Below are positions 1,731 to 51,000 of a stretch of 64,000 nt of DNA, piece by piece (the stretch's first letter is position 1; each line of letters starts with the position of its first letter). A model generated the notes under the pieces. The model saw nothing but the letters and a program-made list of their open reading frames with translations, was not told where the DNA came from and did no database searches. A program made the translations under genes and the position numbers. The DNA lies in NCBI GenBank assembly GCA_026874595.1, contig CM049306.1, forward strand, positions 50,914,019-50,978,018. Reading direction: 5' to 3'. Source of the DNA: Sipunculus nudus. Lineage: Eukaryota; Annelida; Sipuncula; Golfingiida; Sipunculidae.

Positions 1731-4700
1731 GTAAGTTTAACAACCACAGCAGTCAATGAAGCAAATTAAACAAGAATCAAAGCAGCATGTTATGTATGGT
1801 TGAAAAAATTTAGAAAGATTTATTTTAAGTACATTAAAGTGCCAAATTCACTGTATTCAAGTATAAGCTGTAAGGCACTGTCCACATGTGAGAAACATTA
1901 GGATAATAAAAAAAATGGAGAATCAGATAATACAATATAAAAGATAAATTATTTATGTTTTTTTCTATCTTTTAGTCTGTTTATATTTACTTCTCTGGTA
2001 TCATGGTGTTTTATTTTGTGTTTGACTTTCTGTTGACCAGCAGGGCAAATTGAAGTACAGTTGCACTTTTCAGTTGCAGACATGGGTTTTACCTGTAACA
2101 GAGACAGACACTGGGTACAGAGGATACTTAAGTCTTTAAGTCATGGGGCAGTTAATTGAAGTGTCAGTTATTAAAAGGTGGCCATAATAGAGAGGTGTCT
2201 GCAAGTCGAGGTTTCTCTGTATACCCCTAGTTTAGTTTCCAGGTAGTTAATTTGGAATATATTACAGCCATATTTGTAAGCCATAAGGATTTTTAATTCC
2301 TGTTTCATCAAACATTAATTTCAGGTTCAAATGCTACAGCTACATTTAGTCCCTCCAGTGTGGCATAAAGGCTTTGTTGACTATAAAGGCTATGAAAAGG
2401 TTTCAGATTAGGGATAAAATTGCAATTTGATTGGCCTTAAAAGGAATGTGGTCAGTTTGTATAATGTGATGTTTTGTCTCCTGTACAAAAAATATATCTT
2501 TTGCATGACTGGCTATATGGAGGCTGTTTAGTGTGCAACTCCCACTAAATGTTGAAATGATTATCAAAAATTATTTAAATCTTAAGGAAACAAAGTTTTA
2601 GCCTAAGAAGTGGCTCAGAAACCCTGACTGAAAAGGTCATATGCTGAAAGCACTGGGGTTGAGGAGATGAAATTTATAAAATTATTAATTCAGCTGAGCA
2701 TCCTTTCCCCTGGACCACTTTTTCCTTAACATATTAAGGTCTCAAAACAGTAGCAGGAATATGCATAAAGAATGTTTTATTTTCTCCCTATAATTACTCA
2801 ACTTGTTTCTCTGGGACCACTTGACATGTACATATTCTGAAAGCCAGAAATGTTCCCCACAAGTTAGTATATAATAATTTAGGGATTTCCCAAAACTGTT
2901 GTTTTTTTTAAGATTTAAAAAAATATTGATTTTATATATTTTAAATGAAATATAGATATACTTACAATATATAAATATTATACATAATATAAAGCATTTT
3001 CTTAGTTTTTGCTTACATTTTATGAAAAGCATTTTATTTATTACAATTTAAAATAACTTTATACTTCCCATCATATGTCTCATGATGTTTATGTCGTATG
3101 TTTCCTACAGCATGTGGTGGAAACATGTATGATACCAGTGGCAGCTTCACTAGTCCCAATTACCCTGGGTCTAACCCGTCTACCACAGAGTGCAACTGGT
3201 TGATAACAGTTCCAGCTCATAGACAGGTTCAAGTACAATTCACAGCGTTTGACATAGGACCCACCGGTGCTGCCGACGCCTGTACTAACAACTACGTCAA
3301 GTTGTATAACGGGGGCAATGAGCAGGCATCTGTTGTCGGTACCTACTGTGGTACAGTAAGTATGTTTATTCAATGCACCACTATAAAAAATTATAAGCCT
3401 ATTACAAAGTGTATGGTTTACTGTACTGGATTGTATTTAAATTAATTATGATTCTTTTATTTTTTTTTTTTTTTTTTTTTTTTTTGGTGGAGGTAACCGA
3501 CTCAATTTTTTAATGCCTATTTAACTAATTCTTAACTAAGTATGTACATCTGCAGTGTTTCCATTTCGGTTTTGGGACTACTTGACAGGGCGGTAGCACT
3601 CGCTTCCTATCATTTTTAGCTCAGCTGACTTTCAGTCATGCTGGGCTATAGCGATGGGTCTTTGTCCGGCGTCCTTCCGTCCGTCCGGCCGGCCGGCCGG
3701 CCGGCCGGCCGTCCGTTAGCAGGGCACAAATCGTAACCGTAGGGGCTAGGGCCATGAACCCTATGCAGTCTTAGAGGTTATAAAAAGATCTCCTTGCAAA
3801 CCTGAAATTAGGTCACTGCGACCTATATTCTCGAAGTTATTGGGTGTGTTTGCACCCCCCAGAAATAACTCTTTGAGACAAAATTTTCATCCCAAACCTT
3901 CCATCTTTCACATACAGCTCACCTACCAACAGGGGAAGTACCATAATTTTTTTTAGGTCAAGAGGTCAAAGGTCAAGGTCACAGGAGCCTCTTCTTTGAA
4001 AAGCCTGTGGATGCATTTTAAGCCAACCCTTTCATCCCAATTCTTTGATCTTTCACATAAAGCTCACCTACTAAGTTGGAGAAGAATCCTATAGATTTTG
4101 AGGTCACAAGGTCAAAGGTCAGGGTCACAGGATCCACTTCTTTGAAAAGGTAGTGGACACATTTCAAGCTAGACTTTTCATTCCAAACCTTCCAGCACTG
4201 ATATCACTTCTCTGCCAACAGGGGAAAAGACCTGTTGATTTTGAGGTCAAAGGTCAAGTTCACAGCACCCACTTCTTGCGTGGAGTCATTTTCAGGCAAA
4301 CTTTTCAATCTGTACCTTCCATCTGTCATATATGACTTACCTACCAATAAGGGAAGAAGCCTATTGATGTTGAGGTCAAAAAGTCAAAGGTCAAGGTCAC
4401 AATATTTAATTGTTCTATAAATGCTTGTGAGCATATTTCAAGTGTAACTGTTCAACCCAAACCTTCAGTCTTTTACATATGCCACATCTATGCATCACTC
4501 AGTTTGACTCAAACTTCATATTTATGGGTCTTTTTGCTTGAATAAATAACTTATTGAATTTGGGGTCAGCTGGTCAGCAGGTTGAAGGTTGTAGGTCAAA
4601 GTTATTCACCTATTGGTTGCCAAGTAATTACACCAGATTTAAGTGGTCAGTAGTTACCCATCATTTAGAAAGAATCCAGTTGATATATGGGCAAAAGGCC

Positions 4701-21889: not shown

Positions 21890-21892
21890 ATG
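21890..21892 (+). CDS. IMP4: IMP4 exon 1 coding part (start codon only)
   Basis: The protein must start with Met directly before [10 protein letters not shown] of exon 2, in phase 0. CAGTTATG|GTAAGAG at 21886-21899 is the only ATG followed by a strong donor that I find between the transposon and exon 2. The 5' UTR end and promoter are unknown, but at most ~97 bp separate the target-site duplication from the ATG. Confidence 0.75.
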
Positions 21893-22566: not shown

Positions 22567-25500
22567 TCAAGGGTAGTGGTTAAGGTGTTAGCTTAAACTG
22601 GACTCATCTGGACTAGAAGCAGGTTTGCCCGTAAGTACTAGAAACCGTTTTATTGTAAACTAGATTAATGTAGACTGCCTTTCAAGCGGACTACAGATAC
22701 AGTAAACCAAACTGATGTTGATTAGTGGCCTAGTACAGACAGAGTTAACCGATTCAAGATCAGGATTATTTGATTGTGGAGATACTGCCTAAAAACACTG
22801 GGTGTCTTACATGAAAGAAATTGCTTCAGGCCTGCAGATAACGGAATAACGCACTGGCAGGGGAGGTTTTACGCTGAAGGTGTGCAGAGTAGCTGAGGGG
22901 CAGGTCTACTATACTCCACTTTTACCCTAAAAAGTTTGTGGCTTGAGGGCAAGCCCTCAAATGCCCTCAGCATTTGATGCCCCCCCCCCCCCCCACCATA
23001 TGTGATATGCATGTTGCTGAAAAAAATCGAGTGCAAACAAGACATTACTATGTGTATGCATATCTTTACTTGCAGTTAAGGCGTCAGACAAGACAGAGAA
23101 GAGAGTACATATATCGTAAATCCATTGAAGATCGAGAACGGACAATTGCTGAGAAGAAACAAAAACTGAAACTAGCACTAGATGGTAAGCTAAACTGTAT
23201 AATTTATAGTACACTACAGTTAATTAAGTTAATAGTTTGATTGAAAAACAGATATCTAATTTCTACTTTACCAGTCTGAAACATTACAGTATACAAAGTC
23301 AGTTAATTTGCCTTAATCAGGTAATGATATAAGTTATAAGATTTAATATCATGGGGTTTTTATATTAAGATATTTTGATGTTTTCCACAGTGGAACACCC
23401 TTACCGAAATTTAGAACAGTGTTCAAACTTCTTCTCTCATGTATCTTAATCCTGTTGTCGGTCCCCTTTAAACCTGTTTTTCTCATCTTATTTCTCTCTC
23501 TCTCTCTCACTTTTTCTCTCTGTGACTCTGTGAAAAGAAAAACAAATATTTTCAGGTGCGTTTCATTGATTATATCATTTTATGGTCATGTGTAAATTGT
23601 TTCATATAAAGTTATTTTGTTTTTCTTCTGCAGACAATAAAAAGATACCTACACATCTCAGGAAAGATGCACTTGACATACAGAAGACTCTGGCCTGGGA
23701 TGATGAAGGCGGAGAGGGTAAGTGATACTGTACAGCAGTGGAGTCAGACTCCAATCAGGACTTTTACTCTAATCCAGACTTGAATCCACATTTCAGGGAC
23801 TCTGACTTGGTCTTGGACCAGACTTTGACTTGAATAATGTGGACTCAAATACAACACTGCTGTAGGAGATCTGGTGCTGCCTGGATTCCAACAGATATTC
23901 ATTAAACAAAATGCTTTATACCACAACCCCAAGGTAAGTACAAAGCACCACTATGTGAGTAGGGGCCTCTTTGCAATATGTTATAAGAAGAGGCCTGAAG
24001 GCACCATGGTTCTAATCAGGGTTTGCTTGCATCATGGGATCAGAAAAACAGGCAAGGTGGTACCATTATACACTAAGAGGCCTGGTTGCCCCTGTTGTCT
24101 GGTAAAACACCTATTGACACCAAGAAATATGGAAATGCTGGTGGCATTAAAGTATAAGAAGAAGTTGAAAGGAGAGTCCGGCTAACACCATGGTACGGGG
24201 AGAGTCCTGGTGACACCATGGTACTAGGAGAGTTCAGGTGACACCATGGTACTGGGAGAGTCCTGATGACACTGTGGTACTGGGAGAGTCCTGGTGACAC
24301 CATGGTACTGGGAGAGTCCTGGTAACACCATGGTACTGGGAGAGTCCTGGTAACACCATGGTTATGGGAGAGTCCTGGTGACACCATGGTTTTGGGAGAG
24401 TCCTATTGACACCATGGTTATTGGGGAGTCCTAGTGACACCATGGTTATGGGAGAGTCCTGGTGACACCATGGATATGGGAGAGTCCAGGTGACACCATG
24501 GTACTGGGAGAGTCCTTGTGCATCATGGTACTTGGAAATTCCTGGTGACACCATGGTTCTGGGAGAGTCCTTAAAAATAGTTCCATATTTTATTTATGCA
24601 GTGATTTGCCTATTCATATAATAAATGTACAGTGGAACTCCACAAGTAAGACCACCCTGGGGACTGAGCAAAGTGGTCGCAATTTTGGGGTTGTTGTATT
24701 TGTGAAACTCTTTATCTTGGTTGCATATAACACGCTGATGATTAATGTGTATCAGTGTGTATCTATTGCATATCTTTAATGTGATTTATATCAAAATATT
24801 TCACTTAGTGGAGGACCCTTATTATGAACATACATATACACATACGTAGTGACTGATGATTAACATATAATTACACTACATATTGAACATAATACGTGGC
24901 TGTCATATATTTAGCCTTCTGCTTGAGTATATATTGCGTGCATTTGAGCTTTACTGACTGTGTCCTGGTGTTGATGTCTTGATTTACACAGCTTTCTCCT
25001 TCAAAGAGTGCTCTTTCCGAGGCATGGTCCCCCAACAGCAAGCTGTTTTAATGCAAACGGTACCAGTAGAGAAATTAACTAACAGCAATCTATCTGATAA
25101 GCAAGACAATGTGTGGGAATACCCCCATGCAGGCTTTATTAATACATTTTACTGACTGCTCAATACTCATTGTGAGTAAGGTATGAGCACATTTTGGATT
25201 AACTAGGTCATTAATTTGATCAATGAGGATCAAACAATATGTGATGAGTAGAAATATTAAGCTCTCAGCCCCGCACTTAGGGTAGCTGTACTACAGGTGA
25301 TCACTGAGGGGCAATAAGCATTGCTAGCTCAAAACCCCAGGGCAGATAGCCAGGCAGACCGGCATATTAAGTGATCAGGTCAATGGTTACCCTCTTTGAT
25401 ATATTACTTACTCCTCAATGAGTATCAGCGTTGACACCGAGTCAGGAAAAATGCTGGACCAGATTAACATTTGGGTTGGGAAACATAGTTACCCTCTTTG

Positions 25501-28500
25501 ATCTTTCGGTTAGGCGCCTGTATCAAGGTGCAGCAATTGACTCGAAACCTAATCTACTCCTAGGCTGGCTTCAATTACACTATATTTAACTAGCTAGCCT
25601 TTCATCAATTCAAAGAATTTGTAAAACATTGTAAGACTGTAAGTCGATTATAATTAATATTTAATGAATTTATTTCATATTCTATGAAAATATCATTTGT
25701 TGGATCCTGTCATATTCATTTTGTAATTTTACCTCTTATGTAAAATGTCTAGAATATAATTATATTCTAAATGATCTTGTTCATTATCTGTTTTATTCCC
25801 TTCAAAATGGTGTATCTGGAATAAATGTTTTCTGTTTTATAAATCTGATTAAAGATGATAAAAATCAAGCTGGCCTAAGATTAGATTAGGATTCTGATCT
25901 GGTAAGGCCCAGTTTAAAATCAGTCCACCACAGGATTGTAATCTTGACTAGCCCAGATCAAAATTTTGATCTGGGCCAGCCCAGTTAAAAAAAATCAGTC
26001 CACCACACGATAATAAACTTAACCAGCCCAGATCAAAATTATAATCTGGGCCAGCCCAGTTTCAAATCAGTCAAGACCAGATTTAAATTCTGAAGGCTTC
26101 ACCACAGGATTTTAGTCTGGACCGGCCCAGATCAAAATTATAATCTGGGCTGGCCCAGTTTTAAACTGGTCTGGCCCAGATTAGAATTTTGATCTGGGCC
26201 GGTCCAAATCAAAATTTTGATCTGGGCTGGCCCAGTTTTAAATTGGGTCAGATTCTAATCTGGGCCTCGACATATACATAATGTATTAAGATTAAGTGTG
26301 ATCTTTATGCTCATGGTACAGGATTGACTACCAGTCAAGATGATGAATATCAATGGGCAGGTGTAGAAGATCCAAAGATCATGGTGACCACGTCCAGAGA
26401 CCCTAGCTCCAGACTCAAACAGTTTGCTAAGGTAAGCACTCTAATGTCATGCACACCTTACTGTGTAAGGATGTCAGAGCAAATGTAATGTTACCAAGAT
26501 CATGGTGACCATGTCCAGAGACCCCAGCTCCAGACTCAAACAGTTTGCTAAGGTAAGCACTCTAATGTCATACACACCTTACTGTGTAAGGATGTCAGAG
26601 CAAATGTAATGTTACCAAGATCATGGTGACCACGTCCAGAGACCCCAGCTCCAGACTCAAACAGTTTGCTAAGGTAAGCACTCTAATGTCATGCACACCT
26701 TACTGTGTAAGGGTGTCAGAGCAAATGTAATGTTACCAAGATCATGGTGACCACATCCAGAGACCCCAGCTCCAGACTCAAACAGTTTGCTAAGGTAAGC
26801 ACTCTAATGTCATGCACACCTTCCTGTGTAAGGATGTCAGAGCAAATGTAATGTTACCAAGATCATGGTGACCATGTCCAGAGACCCCAGCTCCAGACTC
26901 AAACAGTTTGCTAAGGTAAGCACTCTAATGTCATGCACACCTTACTGTGTAAGGATGTCAGAGCAAAAGTAATTTTTACCAAGATCATGGTGACCATGTC
27001 CAGAGACCCCAGCTCCAGACTCAAACAGTTTGCTAAGGTAAGCACTCTAATGTCATGCACACCTTACTGTGTAAGGATGTCAGAGCAAATGTAATGTTAC
27101 CAAGGTCATGGTGACCATGTCCAGAGACCCCAGCTCCAGACTCAAACAGTTTGCTAAGGTAAGCACTCTAATGTCATGCACACCTTACTGTCTAAGGATG
27201 TCAGAGCAAATGTAATGTTACCAAGATCATGGTGACCACGTCCAGAGACCCCAGCTCCAGACTCAAACAGTTTGCTAAGGTAAGCACTCTAATGTCATGT
27301 TCACCTTACTGTGTAAGGATGTCAGAGCAAATGTAATGTTACCAAGATCATGGTGACCATGTCCAGAGACCCCAGCTCCAGACTCAAACAGTTTGCTAAG
27401 GTAAGCACTCTAATGTCATGCACACCTTACTGTGTAAGGATGTCAGAGCAAATGTAATGTTACCAAGATCATGGTGACCATGTCCAGAGACCCCAGCTCC
27501 AGACTCAAACAGTTTGCTAAGGTAAGCACTCTAATGTCATGCACACCTTACTGTGTAAGGATGTCAGAGCAAATGTAATGTTACCAAGATCATGGTGACC
27601 ACGTCCAGAGACCCCAGCTCCAGACTCAAACAGTTTGCTAAGGTAAGCACTCTAATGTCATTCCCTTCTTACTGTCTAAGGATGTCAGAGCAAATGTAAT
27701 GTTACCAAGATCATGGTGACCATGTCCAGAGACCCCAGCTCCAGACTCAAACAGTTTGCTAAGGTAAGCACTCTAATGTCATGCACACCTTACTGTGTAA
27801 GGATGTCAGAGCAAATGTAATGTTACCAAGATCATGGTGACCACGTCCAGAGACCCCAGCTCCAGACTCAAACAGTTTGCTAAGGTAAGCACTCTAATGT
27901 CATGCACACCTTACTGTGTAAGGATGTCAGAGCAAATGTAATGTTACCAAGATCATGGTGACCATGTCCAGAGACCCCAGCTCCAGACTCAAACAGTTTG
28001 CTAAGGTAAGCACTCTAATGTCATTCACACCTTACTGTGTAAGGATGTCAGAGCAAATGTAATGTTACCAAGATCATGGTGACCACGTCCAGAGACCCCA
28101 GCTCCAGACTCAAACAGTTTGCTAAGGTAAGCACTCTAATGTCATACACACCTTACTGTCTAAGGATGTCAGAGCAAATGTAATGTTACCAAGATCATGG
28201 TGACCACGTCCAGAGACCCCAGCTCCAGACTCAAACAGTTTGCTAAGGTAAGCACTCTAATGTCATGTTCACCTTACTGTGTAAGGATGTCAGAGCAAAT
28301 GTAATGTTACCAAGATCATGGTGACCATGTCCAGAGACCCCAGCTCCAGACTCAAACAGTTTGCTAAGGTAAGCACTCTAATGTCATGCACACCTTACTG
28401 TGTAAGGATGTCAGAGCAAATGTAATGTTACCAAGATCATGGTGACCATGTCCAGAGACCCCAGCTCCAGACTCAAACAGTTTGCTAAGGTAAGCACTCT

Positions 28501-31500
28501 AATGTCATGCACACCTTACTGTGTAAGGATGTCAGAGCAAATGTAATGTTACCAAGATCATGGTGACCACGTCCAGAGACCCCAGCTCCAGACTCAAACA
28601 GTTTGCTAAGGTAAGCACTCTAATGTCATTCACACCTTACTGTCTAAGGATGTCAGAGCAAATGTAATGTTACCAAGATCATGGTGACCATGTCCAGAGA
28701 CCCCAGCTCCAGACTCAAACAGTTTGCTAAGGTAAGCACTCTAATGTCATGCACACCTTACTGTGTAAGGATGTCAGAGCAAATGTAATGTTACCAAGAT
28801 CATGGTGACCATGTCCAGAGACCCCAGCTCCAGACTCAAACAGTTTGCTAAGGTAAGCACTCTAATGTCATTCACACCTTACTGTGTAAGGATGTCAGAG
28901 CAAATGTAATGTTACCAAGATCATGGTGACCACGTCCAGAGACCCCAGCTCCAGACTCAAACAGTTTGCTAAGGTAAGCACTCTAATGTCATACACACCT
29001 TACTGTCTAAGGATGTCAGAGCAAATGTAATGTTACCAAGATCATGGTGACCACGTCCAGAGACCCCAACTCCAGACTCAAAAAGTTTACTAAGGTAAGC
29101 ACTATGATGTCATACACACCTTACTGTGTATAAAGATGTCAGAGGATATGTAATGTTACAAAGATCATGGTGACCATGTCCCGGGACCCCAGCTCCAGAC
29201 TCAAACAGTTTGCTAAGGTAAGCACTCTAATGTCATGCACACCTTACTGTGTATAAAGATGTCAGAGGATATGTAATGTTACAAAGATCATGGTGACCAT
29301 GTCCAGGGACCCCAGCTCCAGACTCAAACAGTTTGCTAAGGTAAGTGCTGTGTCATACATGCTGTATTGTCTGTGAGTGTATTGTTGCATATGTAATGTG
29401 AGTGACTTGAAACCTTGATGTCGCTAATATAACAATATGTAATGTATATTAAGATAAATATATGATTGATATACAGTAAAAACTCTCCTGACCACTGCCT
29501 TGGTTTAGACTAACTCCATTATTTTGCTCTTGATATATAAATTCAAAGCCCAGAATAACGAGTACCTTTTTCTCAATTATTTGGGCATTTAATTTTGGTC
29601 CAATAAGGTGAACTGGACAGTTGTATAATAGAGTCAGCAAAATGCATTTAGTATTAATGTCTATTTTGTGCTAAATTTTCACCTGACAGGAGATGCGACT
29701 CATTTTACCAAACTCACAGCGTATCAACAGAGGAAATTATGAATTGAAGCAGCTTGTGGCAGCATGTAGGGCCAATGATGTCACAGATCTTATCCTGTTA
29801 TCAGAACACAGAGGACAGCCAGGTAAGATGTAACAATTTTGCCCCTATCTATCTTTGCCCATCCCCTTCTTCTGGGGAATGGGGGACTTTGATTTGGGTT
29901 TGTCTGTCTGTCTATCTGTCTGTCCGTATGTCAGGTTTTTGTTTCTGTGCAATAACTTTCCTAAATATTATCCGATTTCATTCAGATTTTGGTCATTGAT
30001 TGCGCTCATGCAAACCTTGGTTGGGATTGTTTTTTTAAGTGTCTGTCTGAAATAATTATTATCACCAGCTCCAAAACAAACAAAAATTTCCCTTTTTGTT
30101 CCCAATTCACAACAAAATTATGACATGTGGAGACATCTTCAGGGGACAATGAAAACTAGAACAAAGGCACTATGACATATGGAGACATCATCAGGGCAAA
30201 ATAAAAACTACAACATAATGAGAAAGCAAAAGGGGAAAACAAGGGGTGGAAGCGGGGGACATAAATTCAACAATTTGCTTGTTTCACCAGTTTGTCAGTT
30301 CATCTGCTTCTTTCTTCATTTGAGTATATAACCTCAGATAGATAGGGATGAATTGTCTCCCCTTCTATGGGGGGAGACATACAGAGCTTGGTCTGTCATC
30401 GTAGTTGTCATCTATAGTCGTCTGTCATTTTTTGTGAAAGTGTTAATTTTGAAGGACTCAACATTTTATCATGAAACATTAGCTTTAAATTGTTTCGACC
30501 AATATCTCGACATGTATCTGTTTTGTCATTGCATAAACAACCTCATTCTAGTTTTAATTAAAATGTGTAGAGAGATGTATATGTTAAGGGCTCTCAGACC
30601 GATAGTTTGTTCAGTAGTAAAGTAAAACTGAAACAATGTATATACATGCTCATGAGTCAGCTTTGAGACCTTGATGTAAAACAAAAATTACTTCACAGGA
30701 AGTTTAATGTTAAACAAAACAGCAAACTTAAAGAATATTTAGCATTTAAATGCAATGGCCCTAATATTTTGGTTATGAATACCTTTTCTAGTATTATGAA
30801 ACAGTGGTATGAAAGCCATAAATGTTAATTACTGGTATTATGTCTCCTTCCCAAAACCACGGCACCAACACCATGTGTTGCTGCTCATGAATTGACTTCC
30901 AGCCATGCGGCCTTGTTAATGTAAACAGACCCACCAGGAGTGTGTTTAACAACATGCAGAGCCATAACAAGGTGTAAAATAGTCGTATGCAAGGTACTGA
31001 GACTGTGCGCTGGAACGGTTTTGCTCAGAAATGTTTTGTATAAAGCAAAACTGAACTGATAGTGTGAAAAAAAGGCATTATATTGCTCCTGATTATGTCC
31101 CTTAAACTCTAAGGTAATTCACACATTAACACTGTTTCAGATGGTCTGATAGTGTCACACCTACCTTATGGACCAACTGCCTACTTCACTCTGGCAAACA
31201 CAGTTATGCGACATGACATCCCCGGGGTTGGCACGATGTCAGAGGCATACCCTCACCTCATCTTCCATAACTTTACGTCAAAACTAGGAAAAAGGGTTAG
31301 TCTTATAAATCTGATTAATGGTCAGATTACATCTTTGTATCACATTTTGTTCATATAACACAAGTGATTAAATAAGGAAGAAATTTGTGTGATTTGCTGC
31401 ATGACAATCAGGAAAATATTTTTTACATTAAAGAATATTAATAAGTGTAAAAAATAATTTATTTTATTATATAATTCTTATAATTTAAATGTAAAATGGG

Positions 31501-34500
31501 CATTGCTGACTATGAACGATAATTGAAGTAATACTCATGTAGCAGCCTAATTGATATTTACCTTTTAAGGAATGTTTGCAATATTAATATATATTAGCTT
31601 ACTCACCTGACATTAGTTTTATATCACATAAGGTAATTAAATGCTGCATTATGAATTTTACTTTAAAGAACACTTACACATCTTTCTCTCAGAAATGGCT
31701 TTAGTTTGTAACTTTGACATGTTGTGGTGTACAATGTCTCATCCGTTATAAATGTTAATTTTAAAATAATTCTTCTTTAGGTCATGAATATACTAAAATA
31801 CCTGTTTCCTGTTCCTAAAGAAGACAGTCGCAGAGTCGTCACATTTGCAAATGATGATGATTATATATCATTCAGGTGAGAGTTAATTATATTGGGTAAC
31901 CATTAGTGGTAGGAATTAGTTGTGAAATCATGTTCAAATTATTGGAAGAAATAAATTGAACTGATGATCTATTTTCATTCCATTATTTAATGCATATCTT
32001 CTATGTAACTGTCAAATCAGTTGTATATTATTATATCTGAAGTATTGATGGAGTAAATTCAGTGTTAACTTTTTCATCATGTCTAAAGGTAAGGCCAAAA
32101 TAAAATAAAGGTATGGTTCTCAGGCACTTTTTTCAGAAATCAATGCAGGCGGGCGTTTTTTTTATGTTTATCTTTTTGGTATGTTTCGATAAAAATGTCA
32201 GATGATAAGGCAAAAGCATGATAATAACAGATTTATTTTGCTGTACAAGTATAAGTACAACATAACAAAGGAAAGTGTATGATTTTATCTTCTTGAAAGA
32301 AATGTCTGAGCAGCTGTAGTTCAAAATTGGTAACTTACTTTGGAAAATCAAAATAAAAATTTTTGATGGGGGGTTTTAAATTGATGCGGGTGGTGCCTGA
32401 GAACCATACCTTTTATTTTTTTTGGCCTAACAGCCGCTTTGTTGACAAGATTCAATTTTAATGCTGTTCACTGCTTTATTTCCTAACTCAGGATTTAAAA
32501 TATTTTTTTTACTGTTTTATATGACATCTTTGCATTTGCATATATAATTGTTTGTGACTGATTATGCAAAAATGCAACCAGTTTGATAGATTATAAAAAA
32601 AAACAATCATTGATATAACTGGTTAATTAGCACACCACTGGTAAGCATTTCATTCACATCTTAGAACAGTCCATTGTCAGAAATAGTTGTGTGAGTTTAA
32701 AAGTGATACTGATATATTTCAGACTATTGAAGTATTCAATAATTTCAGTATCTAAGTATCTGACTTTTTATTACATTTTAAAGCTACTGTCACCATCAAA
32801 GATAGTTGCTATGTGTATATATAAATATATATAAAACTAAAGTCACCTAGAAAAATGTTGATCAGATGTTGGATGTTTTTAAGACTGTGCCAGCTATGTT
32901 AAAGAATGTTACAAATATGCTGGCATATGACAGAAATGCATGTTATCAGTAGGTCAAAAATAATCTTTATGATATCAGCTCCCAGCAAGTCAACTCCCAG
33001 CAAGATTGTCACACATTTCTGCATCCTAGTATCTTGAAACAATACTTAGTGGCCTGGTAAAATCTAACTACAGCCTCATGACTTTCATATCTTTTTACTT
33101 AAAGGGGTCAAATCACTTTATAAACTAAAGGTAATCCCTTGGAGCTTTGATAAAAATAGGCCATAAAATGTGGATATCACCGCACACAGTCTGCTTGTTT
33201 TGTTTATATCAACGTGTTTATAATATGTGGGGCCCACTAACATAATCAAAAGAAATTCAGTAAGGGCATCTGACGGCAAGTCAGATAAGCGAGAGATTTG
33301 CAAATGGCATTTTGCTACAAGTGACCTTTCTACCTCCGCATATATGAAACCTAACACCCTAGGTTACATGTTTTTCCCCCGTTTGTCAACATTGCTGTGT
33401 TTACAAACATCTTGTTTATAAACAAGTTCATTCATCCTTCCCAGAAGCCTTATAAGGACTTTTCATAACCAGAATTATCCTTCGATCATTAATATATACG
33501 CAGAGGAAGCCAGAAATCACATAAATTCTTTTTCAAAAGGTAGGTGAATGGGCAGATTTAAGATATTTCTAAGCCAAATCTTGGACTTGCAATAATCTGA
33601 AATTTATACATTGGCAAAGTGAGGCAGATGCTTTGCCTCATTGGGCCTTGCCGTTCAATTTGCCCTGTATCTTTTATCTTTTTTTTATTCAAACTTCTTC
33701 AGTCAACAGACAGTTGTGTTTTCACTTCAAAATTGACAAAACTAAAAGTAAAACAGCTCAGCAGATTTCTTTTATAACAACTTGAACAGACTGTGGAGCA
33801 GGGCCTAGAAAATTAAAATTTTATTCCCATGAAATATTAGCAATATCCATTTGTTAGAGAGATTTGATAGACACTTGATATACATAGATATTCAGTTTGA
33901 ATGTTAATCATGTGCCATAGAAATATTATATATGGTGTGTTTCAGAGGGAGTGAGAGTAAGCTCATTATGGCTTACCTTGGCTCTCTCCCACTTGTTTCA
34001 CATATAATTAGCTCAGCTGACAGTAAGTCATCTGAGCTTTAGCAATCACTCTTTGTCTGTCGTCCGTCCAGCCTTCTGGTCGTCTGTCCGTTAACAGGCA
34101 CAATTTGTAATCGCTGGACCTTGAATCTTCTAACTGTACATCCAGAGAGGTCCATGAAAAATCTCCTTGGACATCTGGAATTAAGTCACTGTTACCCATA
34201 TTCTTCGAGCTATGGGGCTCCAAAATACCCCCCAGATAAATGGAAAATTTGATACAAAAGCTCAAGTATCTGAACAACTAATGCATTGATCACCATGATT
34301 CTTTGCATTGATATTGATCATGGAGTGATTCATCAATTTCTGCAGGCTTGTGGCGTCACCTGTATTTTTTTCGATGTTTTTTCACTATTTTTGAGACCTT
34401 AAAAGATGCGGTCATCTGTTAACAGGGCACAAATCGTAACGACTGGACCTAGAATCTTCTATCTTGACTTGTGGTGAGGCCCATGAAAAGTCTCCTTGGA

Positions 34501-37500
34501 AACTTGGAATTAGGTCTCTGTTACCCAGATTCTTCAAGCTATGGGGATCTGAATTACCCCCAAGAAAAATGGAAAATTGATACAAAAGCTCAAGTATCTG
34601 AACAACTAATGCATTGATCACCATGATTCTTTGCATAGATATTGATCATGGAGTGATTCATCAATTTCTGCAGGCTGGTGGTGCCACCTGTATTTTTTCA
34701 ATTTTTTTTACAATTTTTTAACTCTATTTTTGATACCTTAAAAGATGCGGTCAACTGATAACAGGGCACAAATCATAACGACTAGACCTAGAATCTTCTT
34801 TCTTGATATGCAGGGAGGCCCATGAAAAAGTCTCCTTGGAGGCCTAAAATTAGGTCTCTGTTACCCAAAACCTCAGAGACTGAGACCTGACTGGTGGCGC
34901 CACCTGGTATTTTTAGCTCAGCTGACTATAAGTCATCTGAGCTATAGTCGTGGTCCATTGTCCGTCGTCCGTCCGTCTGTCCGTCCGTTCTTACAGCAGG
35001 CACATTGTGAGCCTAATTGTAGGTAGAAAGTGACATTGCGAGCCTAATTTTCCCAGTGAGACTAGTCTCACAAGGGGGGTTTGTTCTGTGTGTACAAGTT
35101 GACATAGTGAGTCATTTAAACATAGTTAAGTTCACAAGGGTATGGACGATTTTTTCTTGATTTGTCCAAGTTGTCCAAGTCCACATTGATGGACAAGTAT
35201 TTCAGGTGGCGCCATCTTGCGGAGGCTGGATGGAGTGACAGGTCACGTGGTTTAAAGCTCATAATGTACGGACATTTATTTAACTTGATTTCCACATTAA
35301 AATGTATGTGAATAAAAAGAATTGTTATGTTATTTGTAAATGTTTGAAGGGAACTAAAAATTTATATATCAAAAGGTTATAAAAATTTAAGTATTTTGAA
35401 GTAAACGCAATTTTCTAAGACGATGCGGGATGATTTTGGCGGGAAAATTTGCGACGTCTCACAGAGAGGGACTACTACTTTACGGTGCAGTTTACGGTCA
35501 AAATATTATAACTGTTTGCTTATTTCCGTGACTCGATATAAGTTTATTCAGATTAAGTTTTGACTACGTCAAGTGTAGGCCTAGCAGATATAATATGATA
35601 TTTCGAGCGTGATATTTACAACAGAAGACGGTCGGGTGTTTTTTTTTTTTGTTTTTTTTTGCCGTGCACTTATCGGCCCAATGATGCATGCGCAATGCCA
35701 AGACTGAAAATGGAGGACGAACCCAAAGCGAGGAAGCCCCGAGGCCGTGGCATTGCAAACGAAATTGTAATTATCAACATCATAGCCCGCAAGACAAGGC
35801 ATAGCGGGCTGTCTTAGTGAATATAAGTTTCATAGAGGTTTACGGATCAGTGCCTGTAGGTTGTGTTTACCAAACATTGGCTAACATCGCAGCAGTTTTC
35901 TGTGGGGCACGATATTGAGGAAAACGCAAAATTAATACTACTTTTAGATTTTTAATTGCTCATAATTAATAACGGTTCATGGTATAAACATTAAACTTAA
36001 TGTATATAATCTATAAATGTTTACCTTTCCTATGATATGAAAATTTGTCATGACATATCAGCAATTTTCTCTGTATAAGGAGGTTAAAATACTCTTTGCC
36101 TTACGGGCCTCCCGTTGCGTATTACTCGATTCTGAATGAGTGAAATAAAGCAAAATTATCAGAATATTGATGATAAAAATCGTCATCCTGATTCTGATAG
36201 CCCATAACATTCTCTATTCGGTGTTGAAATGGTTTTTAATAAGAAGGAACTATTTTTTTGAGCATTCAATTATGTCGTGGCCGGGATAAGTACGACGGTT
36301 TTGAATACTGACAGTTCAGTCGGCCAGCGTGATCGGGGATAAGTAGAGTAAGTAGAGAATGGGTGATCTAACTTATACTGTCATAATTTCTCAAGAATTA
36401 GCGTATAATTTAGTTAATCAAATATTTTGGGTAATTTTGTGTAACGAAATGTTTTTAAAATATCACTTTGACCGACGCTAAAGTGAATCGTATGTGAGCG
36501 ATTTTAAGAGAAATTAAGGAGAGTATCGACCAAAGCTTTGATTCCATGAACATGCTGCAGGGTTCGTACGTCCTTAAAAAGTCATTATTTTTGTGATTTT
36601 AAAAATCAGTACTTAAAAAGTCATGATTTTTTTAGAAAATTCTCAAAAGTCATGAAAAAGTCATGATTTTTCATTTTCTTACTGTTTAAAAATATTTTGT
36701 ATCAACTTTATTATTTTTTATTAAAGATTGAACGTATACGTGATACATGAAAACCACCGAAACCAGACTGCACCTGGGCATTTCTCCCCTTAGTGCTGTT
36801 GCAAATTAGGTTGGCATCCGCTCTTCCCTATCTTGACCGCAGCAACCTGTAGCTGCTCGATGAGCGTATACTTCTTTTGGCTTGGCTGCATGGGCGGTCA
36901 TTCCCCCATTGCCGTCATGCCATTCCTACGAATACTTTAGTAAAAATATGCCCGGGCAGTCTTCTTTCAGCTAAACATGCGATCAAGATACACAATTTCA
37001 AGAATTATGTATTGTTCGTAGGATACCAAACGAACCGAATTATAAGCTTTTCTTTAGCGGAGTTATCACAGCAGTGGCGAGTAATGATACGTAGGGGCCT
37101 ATACATTTGAGACAAATAAAAGTGGTGGGTATTTCACCGTCGTTTGCAATAAAAAATAATCACTTAAGCCTATGAGTTTAAGATGTTAAATCATAAATAA
37201 AAATTCTTTTTACATAATTTTCAGTGACGAAAGACTGTCGTGTGTTGAAAATTGCAATTTAAAAAATTTGATTTTAAAATGAAAGAAAAGTAGAATATGC
37301 TGTAATTTTCAGAAAGGTATAAATAACAGAATGTTGCTCTTATAGTCATTACGATGGCATCATTTAAATCCAGTTAGAGATTCCAACACTCCCGTTTTCC
37401 GGGAGTCTACCAAGTTTTGAGGCCTAATCCGTGCCCTCCCGGGCCTTCTGTTGCATCGCCAATTTATAATAATGCCCATACTCCAAGCATTCTTGTATCT

Positions 37501-42000: not shown

Positions 42001-45000
42001 AATTATAGAATTTTCGTAGGGTCCGGGATCCGGGGTCCGTGGGGTCCGGGTTTTACACACTGCCACAATATGGTGACCTCATGGAAGGTGATAGAATAGT
42101 GAACCACTCACAAAAAGCGACCGTCTGCAGCTTATACTCTGTGTGTTTGATGTGTGTTGCATTTGATTCGAAAATAAACAATTTTTTGTTGAATTATTGT
42201 CAAAATAAAATATAAATTGTTCTAGATTTAACTGAATCGGTCATTAATTTGACAGTCTATTCATGCTCCATTGCTGCCACACGAGAATCCAAGCGGAGCC
42301 AAACCATTGCTAAGAATTATTTTTTATTTGACCACAAGCAGACATAACTGCTAATAAAAAGTGTGTGGTTTTGTACAGTAATAATTTTAGAATGCATCAA
42401 ATTTGGAAATGAAACTTAATAAGTCCAAAAAATAGGATTTTCAGAATGACACATGATGATGTTTTCACAACAGCCTGCATGGGTGATAATAAGGGAAATT
42501 AATGGAGCTGTCACGATGCATTCTTAAATTATTCACAATTTAAAAAAAAATTTTTAACAGTCCAAGCCAATTTTCATCCGGATTGTTGAGAATAAATCAA
42601 TATTACACAACCATATTACCATTGCAAAATAAATCACCATGATTATAAAAAAAACTAAAGTCTGTATACTAGCTAATACAAATAACAAATGAGAATACTT
42701 TTATTCCCAGGCGTTTAACTAGCCACTATATATGCAACCCAATTATTCCCCGGGCCCCAATGAAATAAAGCACATCAAGGCCAGCATGGGTCGTCTAAGG
42801 CTAGCTTTTTTTTTCAAAATTATATGAGTGTAACCAAAAAATTATTTATTTTAAAACATTATTGTGCTCTAAAGAAAATTCTTGGACTGCCAGGGCCCCG
42901 TTCAGGCCCTTCGAGCCCTGGTATGACCCCCCCCCCCCCCCGACGCCCTGTGCATTATTTTCATTTTTTGTCAATATATTATAAAACTTTCGCTTTATAA
43001 ATTATTTTTTTAATTCGTGATGATTATGATAAAAATGTTGCATGGCGTACACAACATAACGTAATTCGTTTTTATCGCTAACAATATTGTAATATATCAT
43101 TACCGCCAACAACATAGGCACACTCGGTAGGTTTAATAGTAGAGTTTTGCGGATACTATGTTTTCATTTCTCCGCCGCTGCTGTTAGGTGTCTTGAGACC
43201 GTAACCACTGAGTGGAATTTTACTAAACTCGTGATTTTTTTCGGGTCTGTGAACTGCTGAGCCCCAATTTTGTTTTGACCTCTGACCTCTCCTCTGTGCT
43301 CTGCGTCCATCTATGCGTCTGTGTTCACACATAAACCCCCATATCTCTGTACTCATTTGACCGATCGGGCTGAAATTTTCTAGTTATTTTTTATGCCCAG
43401 ACATTTGGACCCAAAATGGTAGTTGTGACAGGTAAAAATAACTGTAAGCCCACAAGCTTGCACATAAATGTAAGCCCAGAATGTTGGACCAACAGTGATG
43501 GTGGTGACAAGTAAATAAAAGGCCTGAAGGCCCAAAGAAGGGACACATTTCAAGGCTTAGAATGTTAGACACACTGATAGCTGTCGGGGTGAATAATCTT
43601 AATGCTTTAGGTGTAATTATCTTTTACTGTTCAGATTTATTTTTTTTAAATTTACACTATAATATTTTTAACATGTAATTATTTGCCTAATTTTCATTTT
43701 ATATTTATGAAATTTTCAACAATTGATTCGGAGATGAATTGCACCAGGTTCATAATTCATATAATACCTATTAACAAAGTCAGGAAAGTCAAGGGAAATT
43801 TGGACAATGAAGTACCTCATGAATTTAAAGTTAGCATAAATATTACTGTAATATCTACACCATACCTCTGGAGACAGTGAATATGGAGATAAATAAGGAA
43901 AATGGCCATTTGCACCTAATTCATAGCAGTTCTAGGTAATTTAGATTAAAGAAATACAATTAACATAAAAATTACACTTGTTCAAGTTTGAAAATGAATG
44001 AGTCCTAAAACTGAATATTATTTGTCTCATGATATTTAAATTAAATAGACTTATAACTAAGAATGAAAAATAAATGTATACCTTTAGGAAAATGGCCTTT
44101 TATAGACAGTAAAATGTCTACACTTGTCCAATTGAGAAAACTGAATAAATTTCAAAGGAAGATAAAGGTAGAGCATAGGCAAATATTCATTGAAAATGTG
44201 ACAAATATACATATAATTTTTTAAACGTTTGAATAGATCATTAATTATATTTTTCTGCATAATAACGTCCAGTATTGGTAAAATCTGCTGCCAGGAAGCA
44301 ATATTTGAAGAAAGTAAACACACAGCATAATTTTGTAATATTACTGAAATAATGTGGTCTCACATTATTTTGCATAATTTCATGAATTTTTACTTTGAAA
44401 TCATTAGTTATGTTTTAAAAGTCCTTATTTAAATTTCATCTGTTCAGCTTTATGGGCAAACAGTTAAAAATTAATAGATATTCATGAGGAATTAACAAAA
44501 ATAATAGAAGTATAACCTAAAAATGTAACATTTATATTTGACCTTAAACAATTAAGCCAAATAGGGAGTTAAGGTGTCAATGTCCTTTGCAAATAAAACA
44601 AATTGTGAACAGTAAAGCGATAAATGTAAGCCCAGAGTATTATGCCACCAGTGACTGACAGATATCCAAGAACATGAGAATAATGTAGGCCCACAAGAAG
44701 GAACACATTTGTTCTGCCCAGAATGTAGAATGGACAGTGATAGTTGTGGAAGCCAGTATGGCATGCAGGCCCACAAGCTTGGACAAAATGGAAGCTCAGA
44801 ATGTTGGACCCACAGTGATGGTAGCTCAGACATAAATGTTTAGCCCATAATGTTAGACACAGTGATGGTAGGTACTAAATATTCTGTAGGCCCACAAGTA
44901 AGAACCAGATTGAAGGCTCTGAATGTTGGATGCACAATGATATTTGTGGAAGGTAGTATTATCTGTAGGCCCACAAGCTTGGACATAAATGTTTAGCCCA

Positions 45001-48000
45001 TAATGTTAGACACAGTGATGGTAGGTACTAAATATTCTGTAGGCCCACAAGTATGAACACATTTGTTCTGCCAAGAATGTACAATGCACAGTGATAGATG
45101 TGGTAGGTAGTATGATCTGTAGGCCCACAAGCTTGGACAAAATGGAAGCTCAGAATGTTTGACACGTGATGGTAGGTACTAAATATTCTGTAGGCCCACA
45201 AGTAAGAACCAGATTGAAGCTCTGAATGTTGGATGCACAATGATATTTGTGGAAGGTAGTATGATCTGTAGGCCCACAAGCTCAAACATAAATGTTTAGC
45301 CCATAATGTTAGACACAGTGATGGTAGGTACTAAATATTCTGTAGGCCCACAAGTAAGAACCAGATTGAAGGCTCTGAATGTTGGATGCACAATGATATT
45401 TGTGGAAGGTAGTATTATCTGTAGGCCCACAAGCTTGGACATAAATGTTTAGCCCATAATGTTAGACACAGTGATGGTAGGTACTAAATATTCTGTAGGC
45501 CCACAAGAATGAACACATTTGTTCTGCCAAGAATGTTGAATGCACAGTGATAGATGTGGTAGGTAGTATGATCTGTAGGCCCACAAGCTTGGACAAAATG
45601 GAAGATCAGAATGTTAGACACAGTGATGGTTCATACTAAATATTCAATAGGCCCACAAGGTATACCTTGCTTGGGTAATGAGACTGTTTAAATTGTGTTT
45701 CAGGATACTTGCACTGATCATTTAATCATTCTGTAACCATTTTATTATTATTAATTGATTATAAGATTTTTGAGTAATTGCACTTATTTGAAGCATTTAA
45801 GGTTATAAAAGAGATTTTAAAATTGGAACTTTATGTGACCACTCCCTTTTATGTGATTTAACTTTTTAAATATATTTGGTTATGGAATGAATGCTAAGTA
45901 GTGTAAAATAATTAGTGCCAAACACTAATTCATCTTTATCCAAGGATACTAAAATTGTCAGAGTAATTGATTAAGTTTTTAAGACTAAAATGACCAAAAC
46001 AGGTTTTATGTAACTAATTTAAAAATTGTAGAGCTGAGAGAATTTGATCTCACAATTTTAATATAATTAATATTTTTAAAATACATTGACTACATAATAG
46101 GATTTCTAAGACATTTTTGAAGATAAGTTTTTTTTTTAAAACAGAACAGTTTTGTCTCTTTTCAGAATGTGTGTGAAAGATGCATTTATTAGTAAATTTG
46201 AATTTTCATGTTTGTCTTATTGTCATGGAACTGGTCTTAATACGTTTTATAATTGATTAGTATATTTGTTCACATAAAAGAATTGCTTTTCCTTATCTTA
46301 CTGGAAGTTTTATTTGACGGTCTAAGGTCTTAATTTTTTTCTGTCAAAGGCTTTTAATGTAATTCAGTTTTGAAATGCAAAAAGACTTTTTTTTTCCGAG
46401 AAAACATTTAAAATGTTTCCAGTAAATCTTTCTGTAAACAATAATAAATATATGGTATTGTGTATAATATTGTGATGCATGCATCAAGACTTGTATTGAT
46501 TTTATAAGTGATTAAACTCTGTGTTCACTTTAAAGAATTGCTATTCTTTATCTTGTTGCCAGTGTCATTGGATGTTCGAAGGTTTCATTCAGCTTTTGAC
46601 TCCTCTGCCATCCTTCTCATTGAAGGCCTGTTTAATATTTTTCTGACAAAGGTTTTAAATTTGTTTTGTCATGGAAAAAAGGCCTTCGTTATGAGAAAAC
46701 ACATTTTCCCCCAATAAATCTTTTGGAACAAAGTAATACACATGGTATTGTGTATTATCTTGTGATCCTTTATTCAAGACCAGTATTGATTGATAACCTT
46801 GAAGTGTATTATTACATCCCTGATAGGCCCACCACACATGGATATTGGTTACCATATTTCAGGCTCACAGAGTAGAGACCCAAATTAAAACAAGACTAAT
46901 AGGCTTAGTGTACAATGATCACTGGAATATTGGAGTGAAGAAATATAGAATGCAAAGACTGAAGGCTGAGAGAGCATGGACAGAGGCTGTGTAGTTACAG
47001 GTCCACAGAGTCCAAAAAAGTTAAAATTAAAGGCCCAATGTATGGATAAAAGTTGCAGTGATACTGGCTCACAGGGTACAGAACAATGTCACTATAATAT
47101 AGGCCCAGAATGCAGGGATATAGGTTACAATGATGCAAGCTCATAGAGACTAAGTTAACAATTATACAGGCTCATAATGTGTAGATGGTGGTTGCTGTGG
47201 TGAGCCCAAAGTGTATTGACAGTAAGGCTCACAATGTGTAGACAGTGGTTGCTGTGGTAAGCCCACAGTGTATTGACAGAAAGTCTCACAATGTGTAGAC
47301 AGTTGTTGCTGTGGTAAGCCCACAGTGTATTGACAGGAAAGCTCACAATGTGTAGACAGAGGTTGCTGTGGTAAGCCCACAGTGTATTGACTGCAAGGCT
47401 CACAATGTGTAGACAGTGGTTTCTGTGGTAAGCCCACAGTGTATTGACAGCAAGGCTCACAATGTGGCTCTGGTGTGTACACTGAATGGTAGTCTCCTAA
47501 GGGTGTTTTGTACACACACAAAGGCCCACAATGTCAGTGACACACAAAAGGCTCGTAATGTGGCTGTGGTAAGTAGTGCCGTCCGTCCGTCCGTAGATGT
47601 GGCACGTTTTGAAACCGTAAGACCTAGGAAGCCAAAATTCGGCATAATGTTAGATGTCCCCAAGATCTCCTACCAAGCCGAAAACTGGGTCTTTTCGACT
47701 TCGTTCCTTTGAGAAATTAAGGAAAAACCTCAATTTTTTTATTAAAAACCTATTTTAACACTTCAGGACTGCCTAATATCAAAACCACTCATCTGTTTTT
47801 CCTCATATATACCATAAATATTCCTCTATATAGTTCCTATGTACATTCAAGAAATTATGCCTGTATTATATAATTTAAAAAAGTTATGGGCCCAAACATA
47901 ATGCATTTTGTAAAAAATCAGGAAAGATATTTGATCACTTAACACAAAACATGTTAAAGCTATGGACCTTTTTTCCAGTAATATAACTTTAATTAATCAA

Positions 48001-51000
48001 AATTAAATTGTATACCCAAAATAAGATGAAAATCTTTTAAATTTTTTAAAATATTAATAAAAATAAAAAATTGGTACCTTAAATTTTGCCCAACTTTGAC
48101 CATGGCGCGTTTTTTTCCTGTGAGTACTGTGGATTTAATTTTCACAGCATGTTTTTGTTACCTTTTCAACTGTTAACACCAAAAATTTGAAACCAGTTGA
48201 TCAAAAACTGTAGATTTTATTCAAGTTTTCAAGCACCATGTAACATATTGTTAACATCAAGCTAGTGTTATGCAGTTTGCAAGAGCTCAGCTCCCCAGCT
48301 TCAGCTCTTAGTTCCTTAAATTCGGCATACAGCTAGATGTCTCCAAAATCCCCTACCATGCCAAGAATTTGGTCACTAGGACTTAATACCTTCAAGATAT
48401 TAATGAAAAACTTCATTTTTCCATTAAAAACCCATTGTTACTCTTCAAGACTGCCTAATATCAAAACCACTGATCTGACTTTAATCATAAATAATATACA
48501 TATTTTTCATTCTCTATGCACATGCCAGAATGATGTCAGTATTGCGTAATTGTTTCAAGTTATGGGCCCAAACATAATGCACTTTGTAAAAAATCAAGAA
48601 ATATATTTACTCCCTCAACAAGGGGATTGCTGAAGCTAGAGATTTTTTGTCAGGGATGTAACATTATTTAATCAAGATTCAATTGAATACCCAAAATTAG
48701 TTATGAATTTTTCAAATTATTAGTATAAATGTAAAATTAATAACTTAAATTTTGCCCAACTTTGACCATGGCACATTTGTTATCGTGAGCACTGTTGATA
48801 TAATTTTCATATCATGCACACATAAGGATTTCAGCTTTTAAGTTTAGAAAGCTGAAAGAAATTGGCCAAAAATTGTAGCTTTTATAAATGTTTTTATGAG
48901 ACCCTGTCAGACTTTGGCTCTCTCCAGCCCCTCTTGAGTCACCTGTATGTTGACCTTGTTGAACTTTCAGCAAATTATGCATGCTTGAGGCGAGGCATAC
49001 AGGGGAATCCAGGCAGCTTATGGCCAGCCACAGTTGATCCAGGTGTCCAACCCAACTCATCTAGTAGTTTTAACCAACTACATAACAATAAACAATAAAT
49101 TAATAAATTTTTATTGGTTTTTAATAAAAAATTAAAGAAAAATTGAAAAGGAATTTGTTAGTTTATAATAACAGGAAATTAACTTGCAGTTACTGATGAT
49201 ATAAGAATCTTGTATCGATGGATAGAATGTCACGTATTCCAAATAACAACATGCAGTCACCTATGGTATTTTTCAGTTCAATTTTAATGATAAAGAAGTA
49301 AATCATATCATTCATTACTAATCATTAGGGATCATATGATGGAAATTAATGATAGACAAAGATGGATTGATAATATTAATCTAGATTCCTACTGTGTCTA
49401 GTGTGTACATTGATGTGAAATTAGTCCAAAATGAATTTATTACAGTTATTTTTTAATATAAATAAAAGCCATAAAACCAGGTATTTATGATCATTATTTA
49501 AATGTGTGAATTTTGTATATTCTGGATTCTCAACATCATTGTTTGGTGAAAACTGAATAAATACCAGTCATGGTGCGAATACTTTGTAATTGTATTTAAA
49601 TACGAATATGATTATGTACTCCATTATAAAATTTCTTGCATAAAGAATGGGAATTAAGGTAAAAATGAAAGTATATGAATACCAGTGCAAATACTTTCAA
49701 AATGTATTCATGAATGCATTCATGAATATATTCTTTAATATTATTTTAATAATCATTTCAGTTATATTTCATTTAAGAAAATCATATGATTCTCTTATTA
49801 TTTAAAAAAAAATAATATTTGGGACAATATTTGTAATTTTTTTTAATTAATAGTTAAACCCTTATATTATATATTCTGCTTATAAGTTATATGGCCAAGT
49901 CAAAATCTGTGTGACAATAGCACTCCATATGTTAATAAAATAAATGAAATCAATCCTCTTCCCTGTCTCCAAAGGTACTATCAAAATCATACATAAGCTA
50001 AACAACAACAACTCATAATACAGCTTATATTTATTACCACACAAAACCAGCATGTGCCTCATTTCTAAATAATATTTTTTTATCATATATAACAGCTGAG
50101 CGTCGTGACCCATAGGTCCCTTGTTTTATTTTTTGTGTGATTTTTTTCTCTGTTTTTGAGACCTTTAAAGAAGCGGTCATCCTTTAACAGTGCACAAATC
50201 ATAACCATTGGTCCTAGATTCTTCTTACTTGACATCCAGGGAGATCCATGAAAAGTCTTCTTGGAAACATGAAATTAGGTCTCTGTTACCCATATTTTCC
50301 AAGCTATGGGGCTTACAAGTACCCCCCAGAATAACTGAAAATTTGATACCAAAACAGGGCACAAATCATAACCATTGGACCTAGAATCTTCTATTTTGAC
50401 AACCAGGGAGGTCCAGAAAAAATCTTGGAAACCTGAAATTAGGTCTCTGTTACCCATATTCTCCAAGCTATGTGGCTTATAAGCACCCCCAGAATAATTG
50501 AAAATTTGATACCAAAGCAGGGCACAAATCATAACCATTTGACTGTAATCTTCTTACTTGACATCCTGAGAGTTCCTCAGAAGGTCTCCTCTGAAACTTG
50601 AATTGAGGTCACTGTGACCTATATTATCTGAGTTACAGGCCATGTTTGAGAACCCCAGAAATGATGCAAAATACACAAAAATTGCCAGATTCCTCAGGAG
50701 CAGCTGGATGGATTGTCATCAAATTTGATGTGCTTGTTGATGTTGATGAACTTCAGCTAATATGCATGAACTATGATGCCACCTACATTATCTTAATTTG
50801 TTGCTGTGCAAGGATATATTGTCAACGTGCCAGTCGGCTGAGCGTCATGACCCATGGGTCACTTGTTTTAATATGGCTGTATATGACCTTTGGATAATAT
50901 TCATTGTGGAATAAAAGAGGAAGTGATGAATATTCATATTTTGTTGCCTCTTCAGGGAGCTATCCCAATACTTCTGGTCAGTTTGTCTTGTCACTGACAG

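Follow-up and report, generated by a model that had tools for sequence, protein, structure and literature searches.

Results and Discussion

The window analysed here is a stretch of 64,000 nucleotides from Sipunculus nudus (assembly GCA_026874595.1, contig CM049306.1, positions 50,914,019 to 50,978,018 of the forward strand; all positions given below are counted from its first letter). It contains, on the forward strand, the coding exons of the ribosome-biogenesis gene IMP4, in whose intron 4 the 3' end of exon 4 recurs together with its donor site in a tandem array of 25 copies. The term mirage was introduced with amphioxus Adh3 for tandem repeats that lie across an exon/intron boundary, and globins provide further reported cases (PMC3087553). 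The IMP4 array is probably best understood as a repeat of this type.

IMP4 exons 2 (23076–23184), 3 (23634–23717), 4 (26322–26431), 5 (29690–29822), 6 (31141–31295), 7 (31781–31875), 8 (51034–51107) and 9 (51997–52109, with the stop codon) are bounded by AG acceptors and GT donors and end in a closing stop, while a candidate for exon 1, ending ATG|GTAAGA at 21890, is placed only tentatively. For translation the start ATG was supplied and exons 2–9 were joined. With the first donor of the array this gives a frame of 291 amino acids, which aligns gaplessly to human IMP4 (7mq8_SM, residues 1–290, E=4.9e-131) and with few gaps to yeast Imp4 (5wlc_SM, E=4.7e-89), the Brix domain occupying residues 90–256 (Pfam). 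The gapless alignment bears out the earlier note on this DNA, which had named the gene IMP4 from its letters. As in mirages, the host gene is otherwise intact over coding exons 2–9.

A protein search of the genome with 165 amino acids of IMP4, which scores only its best candidates, listed 33 places, which comprise the IMP4 exons, the copies in the array and a small number of weaker matches elsewhere. All strong matches lie within the gene of the window, so that no second IMP4 copy or retrocopy was found, and none of the 33 places represents a second locus of the array unit. The best place outside the gene (L007, E=4.0e-5, 45% identity) is a divergent multi-exon Brix paralogue with exons 45–54% identical; two other Brix matches, L001 and L002, were rejected as IMP4, having no significant match to the human protein (best E=0.44). 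Within the limits of the search, IMP4 can therefore be regarded as single-copy, as the earlier note had it. In yeast the gene is essential.

The array was called by Tandem Repeats Finder at 26375–29345 with a period of 121, 24.5 copies and 97% matches, and a direct scan resolved it into 25 head-to-tail copies at 26378–29340 of the forward strand, in agreement with the 25-fold repetition of a 121-bp unit first proposed for the exon 4/intron 4 junction. Each unit comprises the last 54 nt of exon 4, in phase 0 as first noted, and continues through the 5' splice site into roughly 67 nt of intron, a stretch that follows 24 of the 25 exon copies. Exon 4 itself, 110 nt long and fitting human IMP4 without a gap, ends with copy 1. 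Core units 1–22 (26378–29040) are of a 121-bp type and units 23–24 (29041–29286), at the right edge, of a 123-bp type, which yields spacings of 121 in 21 of 24 cases, 122 in one case within the core and 123 in two. Exon copy 25 (29287–29340) is followed by a single-copy intron flank (29341–29398), a homologue of the unit intron that matches copy 24 at 37 of 58 aligned positions.

Splice signals are kept throughout the array, as is typical of mirages. All 25 units carry AAG|GTAAG, extended to AAG|GTAAGC in copies 1–24 and AAG|GTAAGT in copy 25, and for the 13-nt donor context 24 copies share CTAAGGTAAGCAC, whereas copy 25 has CTAAGGTAAGTGC. The predicted pairing with U1 amounts to −9.5 kcal/mol for 24 array donors, among them the first (GTAAGC, 26432–26437), and to −11.7 kcal/mol for the last (GTAAGT, 29341–29346), compared with −6.1 to −11.3 kcal/mol for the seven IMP4 exon donors. 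To the initial description of 25 nearly identical donors it must be added that the last is a better match to U1 than the rest.

The 25 copies are in register and comprise 16 distinct unit sequences. Seven copies are identical (6, 9, 10, 12, 17, 18 and 20), further identical pairs are formed by copies 8/16, 14/21 and 15/22, and identical units are most frequent at a lag of eight (4 of 14). This pattern fits a duplication of a block of 7–8 units, with copies 8–15 and 16–22 resembling the duplicated block. The ordered block pattern of 16 distinct units, the window being free of any N and a length of 3 kb, which single long reads generally span, make an assembly artefact, with a far shorter real array or a wrong copy number, very unlikely, even though tandem arrays are often mis-sized and one lancelet mirage was, according to its authors, aberrantly assembled in the draft genome (PMC3087553).

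As a correction to the earlier note, the exon copies are not uniform at the protein level: the peptide of copy 1 is encoded by ten of the 25, counting copy 1 itself. The most frequent deviation concerns codon 5, which specifies Thr in copy 1 (ACG) as well as in the aligned human and yeast chains and reads ATG in 14, ACG in nine and ACA in one of the other 24 copies, so that 14 of 25 copies encode Met; this distribution fits CpG decay as a possible cause. Copy 23 differs from the consensus by three amino-acid changes beyond codon 5 and by no silent change. Among core copies 1–22, variable sites number 4 of 54 in the exon part and 8 of 67 in the intron part (Fisher p=0.54; the intron count omits copy 5, which has an insertion, and so rests on 21 of the 22 copies), and pairwise differences amount to 1.5% and 2.6%, respectively. 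Exon and intron parts of the core thus vary alike, and we see no sign that selection keeps the exon copies; no exon constraint was found in copies 1–22.

At the right edge a different picture emerges. The intron flank after copy 25 aligns to the unit intron with a score of 8.7, compared with a maximum of 5.8 in 1000 shuffles, and since it is still recognisable at 64% identity, the seed duplication is probably old. Between copies 24 and 25, one of the 54 exon sites differs, as against 21 of 58 sites in their introns (Fisher p=1.8e-6); between exon copies 1 and 25 the difference is 3 of 54 sites (p=6.3e-5 against introns). The plain reading of this contrast is an edge effect, in which exon 25 would lie inside the exchanged tract and its outer intron outside. 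Near-identical core copies, distinct units 23–25 and a diverged outer intron together correspond to the concerted evolution with edges left out that is seen in mirages. One might instead suppose an old mirage whose exon halves have been kept all but identical to exon 4 ever since the seed duplication, with the intron half diverging to 64% identity, either because some copies are spliced in, adding repeats of 18 or 25 residues, or because use of the donors sets the IMP4 dose via decay of transcripts. We consider this unlikely, and its two variants are taken up separately below.

The coding consequence of each donor can be read off directly. Only the first donor gives full-length IMP4 upon joining exon 5, whereas donors 2–25 all (24/24) reach the same TAA after 18 codons and yield a truncated product of 120 amino acids; the read-through stop and the need for the first donor had both been correctly anticipated. 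As 64 nt (donor 2) to 2852 nt (donor 25) separate the premature stop from the junction that follows, decay is expected for these transcripts. The array could accordingly be imagined as a decoy that lowers IMP4 output, donors 2–25 sending part of the transcripts to nonsense-mediated decay, all the more as the predicted U1 pairing of the later donors equals (23) or exceeds (one) that of the first. We nevertheless hold such a function to be quite unlikely: the core copies are without sign of constraint, some lancelet examples are reportedly spliced regularly, and low-level use of the later donors alone would not demonstrate regulation.

Copies might also be spliced in as cassettes that preserve the frame, in which case the resulting IMP4 isoforms would carry, after residue 102, at least one repeat of 18 or 25 residues. 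The acceptor AAG|ATC, to which the earlier note had drawn attention, indeed keeps all 24 copies in frame as 54-nt cassettes. A second in-frame acceptor upstream (CAG|AG) had been missed; it defines 75-nt cassettes that are in frame in 23 of 24 copies, copy 6 failing because of a 1-nt insertion in the preceding intron. Each of these cassettes would end in an AAG|GTAAG donor, and the exon copies stay near-identical across the right edge despite the drift of the outer intron. The acceptors themselves, however, look poor in all 24 copies by simple features such as pyrimidine content, the base at −3 or a close upstream AG. For the 54-nt cassettes, the pyrimidine fraction from −20 to −5 is 0.44 in 23 copies, the remaining one having 0.50, and position −3 is always A; for the 75-nt cassettes the fraction is 0.44 in 16, 0.50 in six and 0.38 in two copies, with C at −3 and another AG 9–10 nt upstream. 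The eight real IMP4 acceptors have fractions of 0.56–0.88 and either C or T at −3, and their nearest upstream AG lies 24–61 nt away. Together with the similar variation of exon and intron parts in the core, the amino-acid changes of copy 23 and the fact that an insertion would sit inside the Brix domain, this makes cassette use very unlikely. The need for a special mechanism silencing the other donors, as had been suggested, is not supported, given that the cassette acceptors look poor and some lancelet mirages are reported to be regularly spliced.

We therefore favour the view that the array is a mirage-type minisatellite with an old seed that later expanded, that the first donor is the one used, and that the repeat is a tolerated passenger, a reading we consider probable. 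Beyond the anatomy, the intact coding exons 2–9, the coding outcome of each donor, the poor acceptors and the block and edge patterns, we infer the order and age of events, the use of the first donor and neutrality as follows. The exon 4/intron 4 junction (54 nt of exon and about 69 nt of intron, approximately 123 bp) would have been duplicated in tandem as the seed. Unequal exchange or replication slippage may later have multiplied a derived 121-bp form, in part through the duplication of a block of 7–8 units, until 25 copies were reached. Exon definition would pair the exon-4 acceptor at 26322 with the nearest strong donor at 26432 and so produce the 110-nt exon 4, the shortest unit definable from this acceptor, and the other 24 copies, being without a good acceptor, would be removed as intron. 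Recruitment of U2AF and U2 to an acceptor has been described to increase when the exon that follows it ends in a donor (PMC8724738).

Several points speak against this view. The last donor, in copy 25, pairs better with U1 than the first (−11.7 versus −9.5 kcal/mol), and its use would truncate the protein. Where U1 occupies several strong donors at once, splicing often favours the intron-proximal one, which again points to copy 25. Predicted local RNA accessibility does not set the first donor apart (0.0087; all 25 donors 0.0022–0.0296) and was dismissed as a cause of first-donor choice, as it shows no difference between this donor and the others. Finally, the near-identity of exon copies 24 and 25 amid intron drift could be due not to an edge effect but to selection acting on these copies.

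Genomic Context

To describe the genomic background, 20 stretches of 10 kb were taken from contigs C1–C5, spaced evenly rather than at random and containing 866 N. In these 200 kb, 31 arrays with a period of at least 20 bp cover 39,801 of 200,000 bases (19.9%). Three of the 31 have more than 30 copies, and on neither strand does any of them reach four AGGTRAG words. Four of the 20 stretches are without any array of this period, and two others (L025 and L026, at 25 and 35 Mb of C4) consist almost wholly of array, with a 35-bp unit over 10,000 bases and a 129-bp unit over 9,125 bases, respectively. The window itself holds 16 arrays with a period of at least 20 bp, covering 10,160 bases. In a genome so rich in arrays, some would be expected to include the end of an exon by chance.

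Across the genome, triples of AGGTAAG at a spacing of 102–132 bp were matched 3358 times (1516 + 1842), compared with 1192 times (455 + 737) for the reversed control, overlapping matches within one array being counted many times; the places listed reach 2.8 Mb on C1, and the array of the window, at 50.9 Mb, is not among the matches listed. A 58-bp array at C1:1041372-1045958 carries the near-perfect donor word AAGGTAAGTC in many of its units, whereas its leftmost full unit has AAAGTATGTC instead. At the left edge of this one array, examined by eye and through its open reading frames, which were not run against the family library, no evident coding exon was found, so that a donor-like word alone is nothing special in this genome.

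Further repeats accompany IMP4. Dense overlapping inverted repeats occupy 25883–26251, leaving about 70 nt between them and the exon-4 acceptor downstream. They have arms of up to 72 nt with 82% complementarity, include palindromic words of the GATCAAAATTTTGATC type and might stall replication forks or form hairpins beside the array. Intron 3 contains a 28-bp minisatellite of 14.4 copies (24171–24571), and the 19-kb intron 7 contains arrays of 153 bp (44829–45659) and 57 bp (47168–47466). Two arrays with periods of 328 bp (34090–34867) and 164 bp (50186–50563) share AACAGGGCACAAATC-type sequence and thus represent one repeat family at both places. Elsewhere in the window, an open frame with a CUB domain (3086–3445; Pfam PF00431, E=1.6e-19) is probably an exon of another gene. 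No Rfam match was obtained in the window at gathering scores.

Comparison with Known Systems

What distinguishes the IMP4 array is its copy number, its location in a housekeeping gene and the contrast between exon copies that stayed near-identical and an outer intron that diverged to 64% identity. With 24 donors of the same 13-nt context and one stronger donor in a row within one intron, it also offers a natural test of splice-site choice. Since exon definition favours the first donor, while copy 25 is both proximal and strongest, the donor found joined to exon 5 would tell whether exon definition prevails, in which case the first wins, or whether the strongest or intron-proximal site is preferred, in which case the last wins.

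A precedent that the earlier note had missed is that mirages have already been described in amphioxus Adh3, the globins BflGb6 and BflGb9, troponin C and PGBD5. From Adh3 data and their own reverse-transcription PCR of globins, the authors suggest that regular splicing is not interfered with; the BflGb6 copy number differs by haplotype (six and three), and cluster boundaries escape homogenisation (PMC3087553). PGBD5 was added later, with troponin C cited, and in the passages concerned its splicing is inferred to be undisturbed, without transcripts across the repeats (PMC3902484).

In these accounts the amphioxus repeats, like that of IMP4, span the boundary, with units of 10–72 bp in Adh3, 60 and 108 bp in PGBD5 and 150–160 bp in globins; many units carry AG/GT signals, and the inner copies of BflGb6 are homogenised while the edges are not. 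They differ in copy number, with three and six in the BflGb6 haplotypes and two to seven for PGBD5 in two assemblies against 25 in IMP4, and the IMP4 array differs from them in lying in a ribosome-biogenesis gene and in a genome of 1.43 Gb. The amphioxus genome is smaller than this.

Related minisatellites are known from human genes. In that of IFI6 (6-16, G1P3), the unit is reportedly 12 bp long, with only some of its donors in use. As in IMP4, a single transcript there receives numerous 5' splice sites from a minisatellite (Turri et al. 1995), which is cited for interfering with splicing (PMC3618361). In human segmental-duplication genes, expansions of boundary minisatellites are likewise able to change introns, but their units of 30 bp, about four copies on average, belong to recent paralogues (PMC2812944). 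An abalone gene is reported to have a length-variable minisatellite, placed in intron 3 with no mention of a splice boundary in the passages concerned (PMC6905558). No similar array in a mollusc or in IMP4 turned up in the open-licence literature, where IMP4 itself was not searched for and molluscs barely, which is no proof of absence in print.

In anatomy, intact coding exons and edge behaviour, the features that were compared, the IMP4 array matches the amphioxus mirages. If the host is not a lancelet, as its listing under S. nudus and the size of its genome suggest, mirages would not be confined to lancelets and could reach tens of copies, which bears on exon/intron gain. The kind of repeat is already known from a few lancelet genes, and the IMP4 array is a long example of it.

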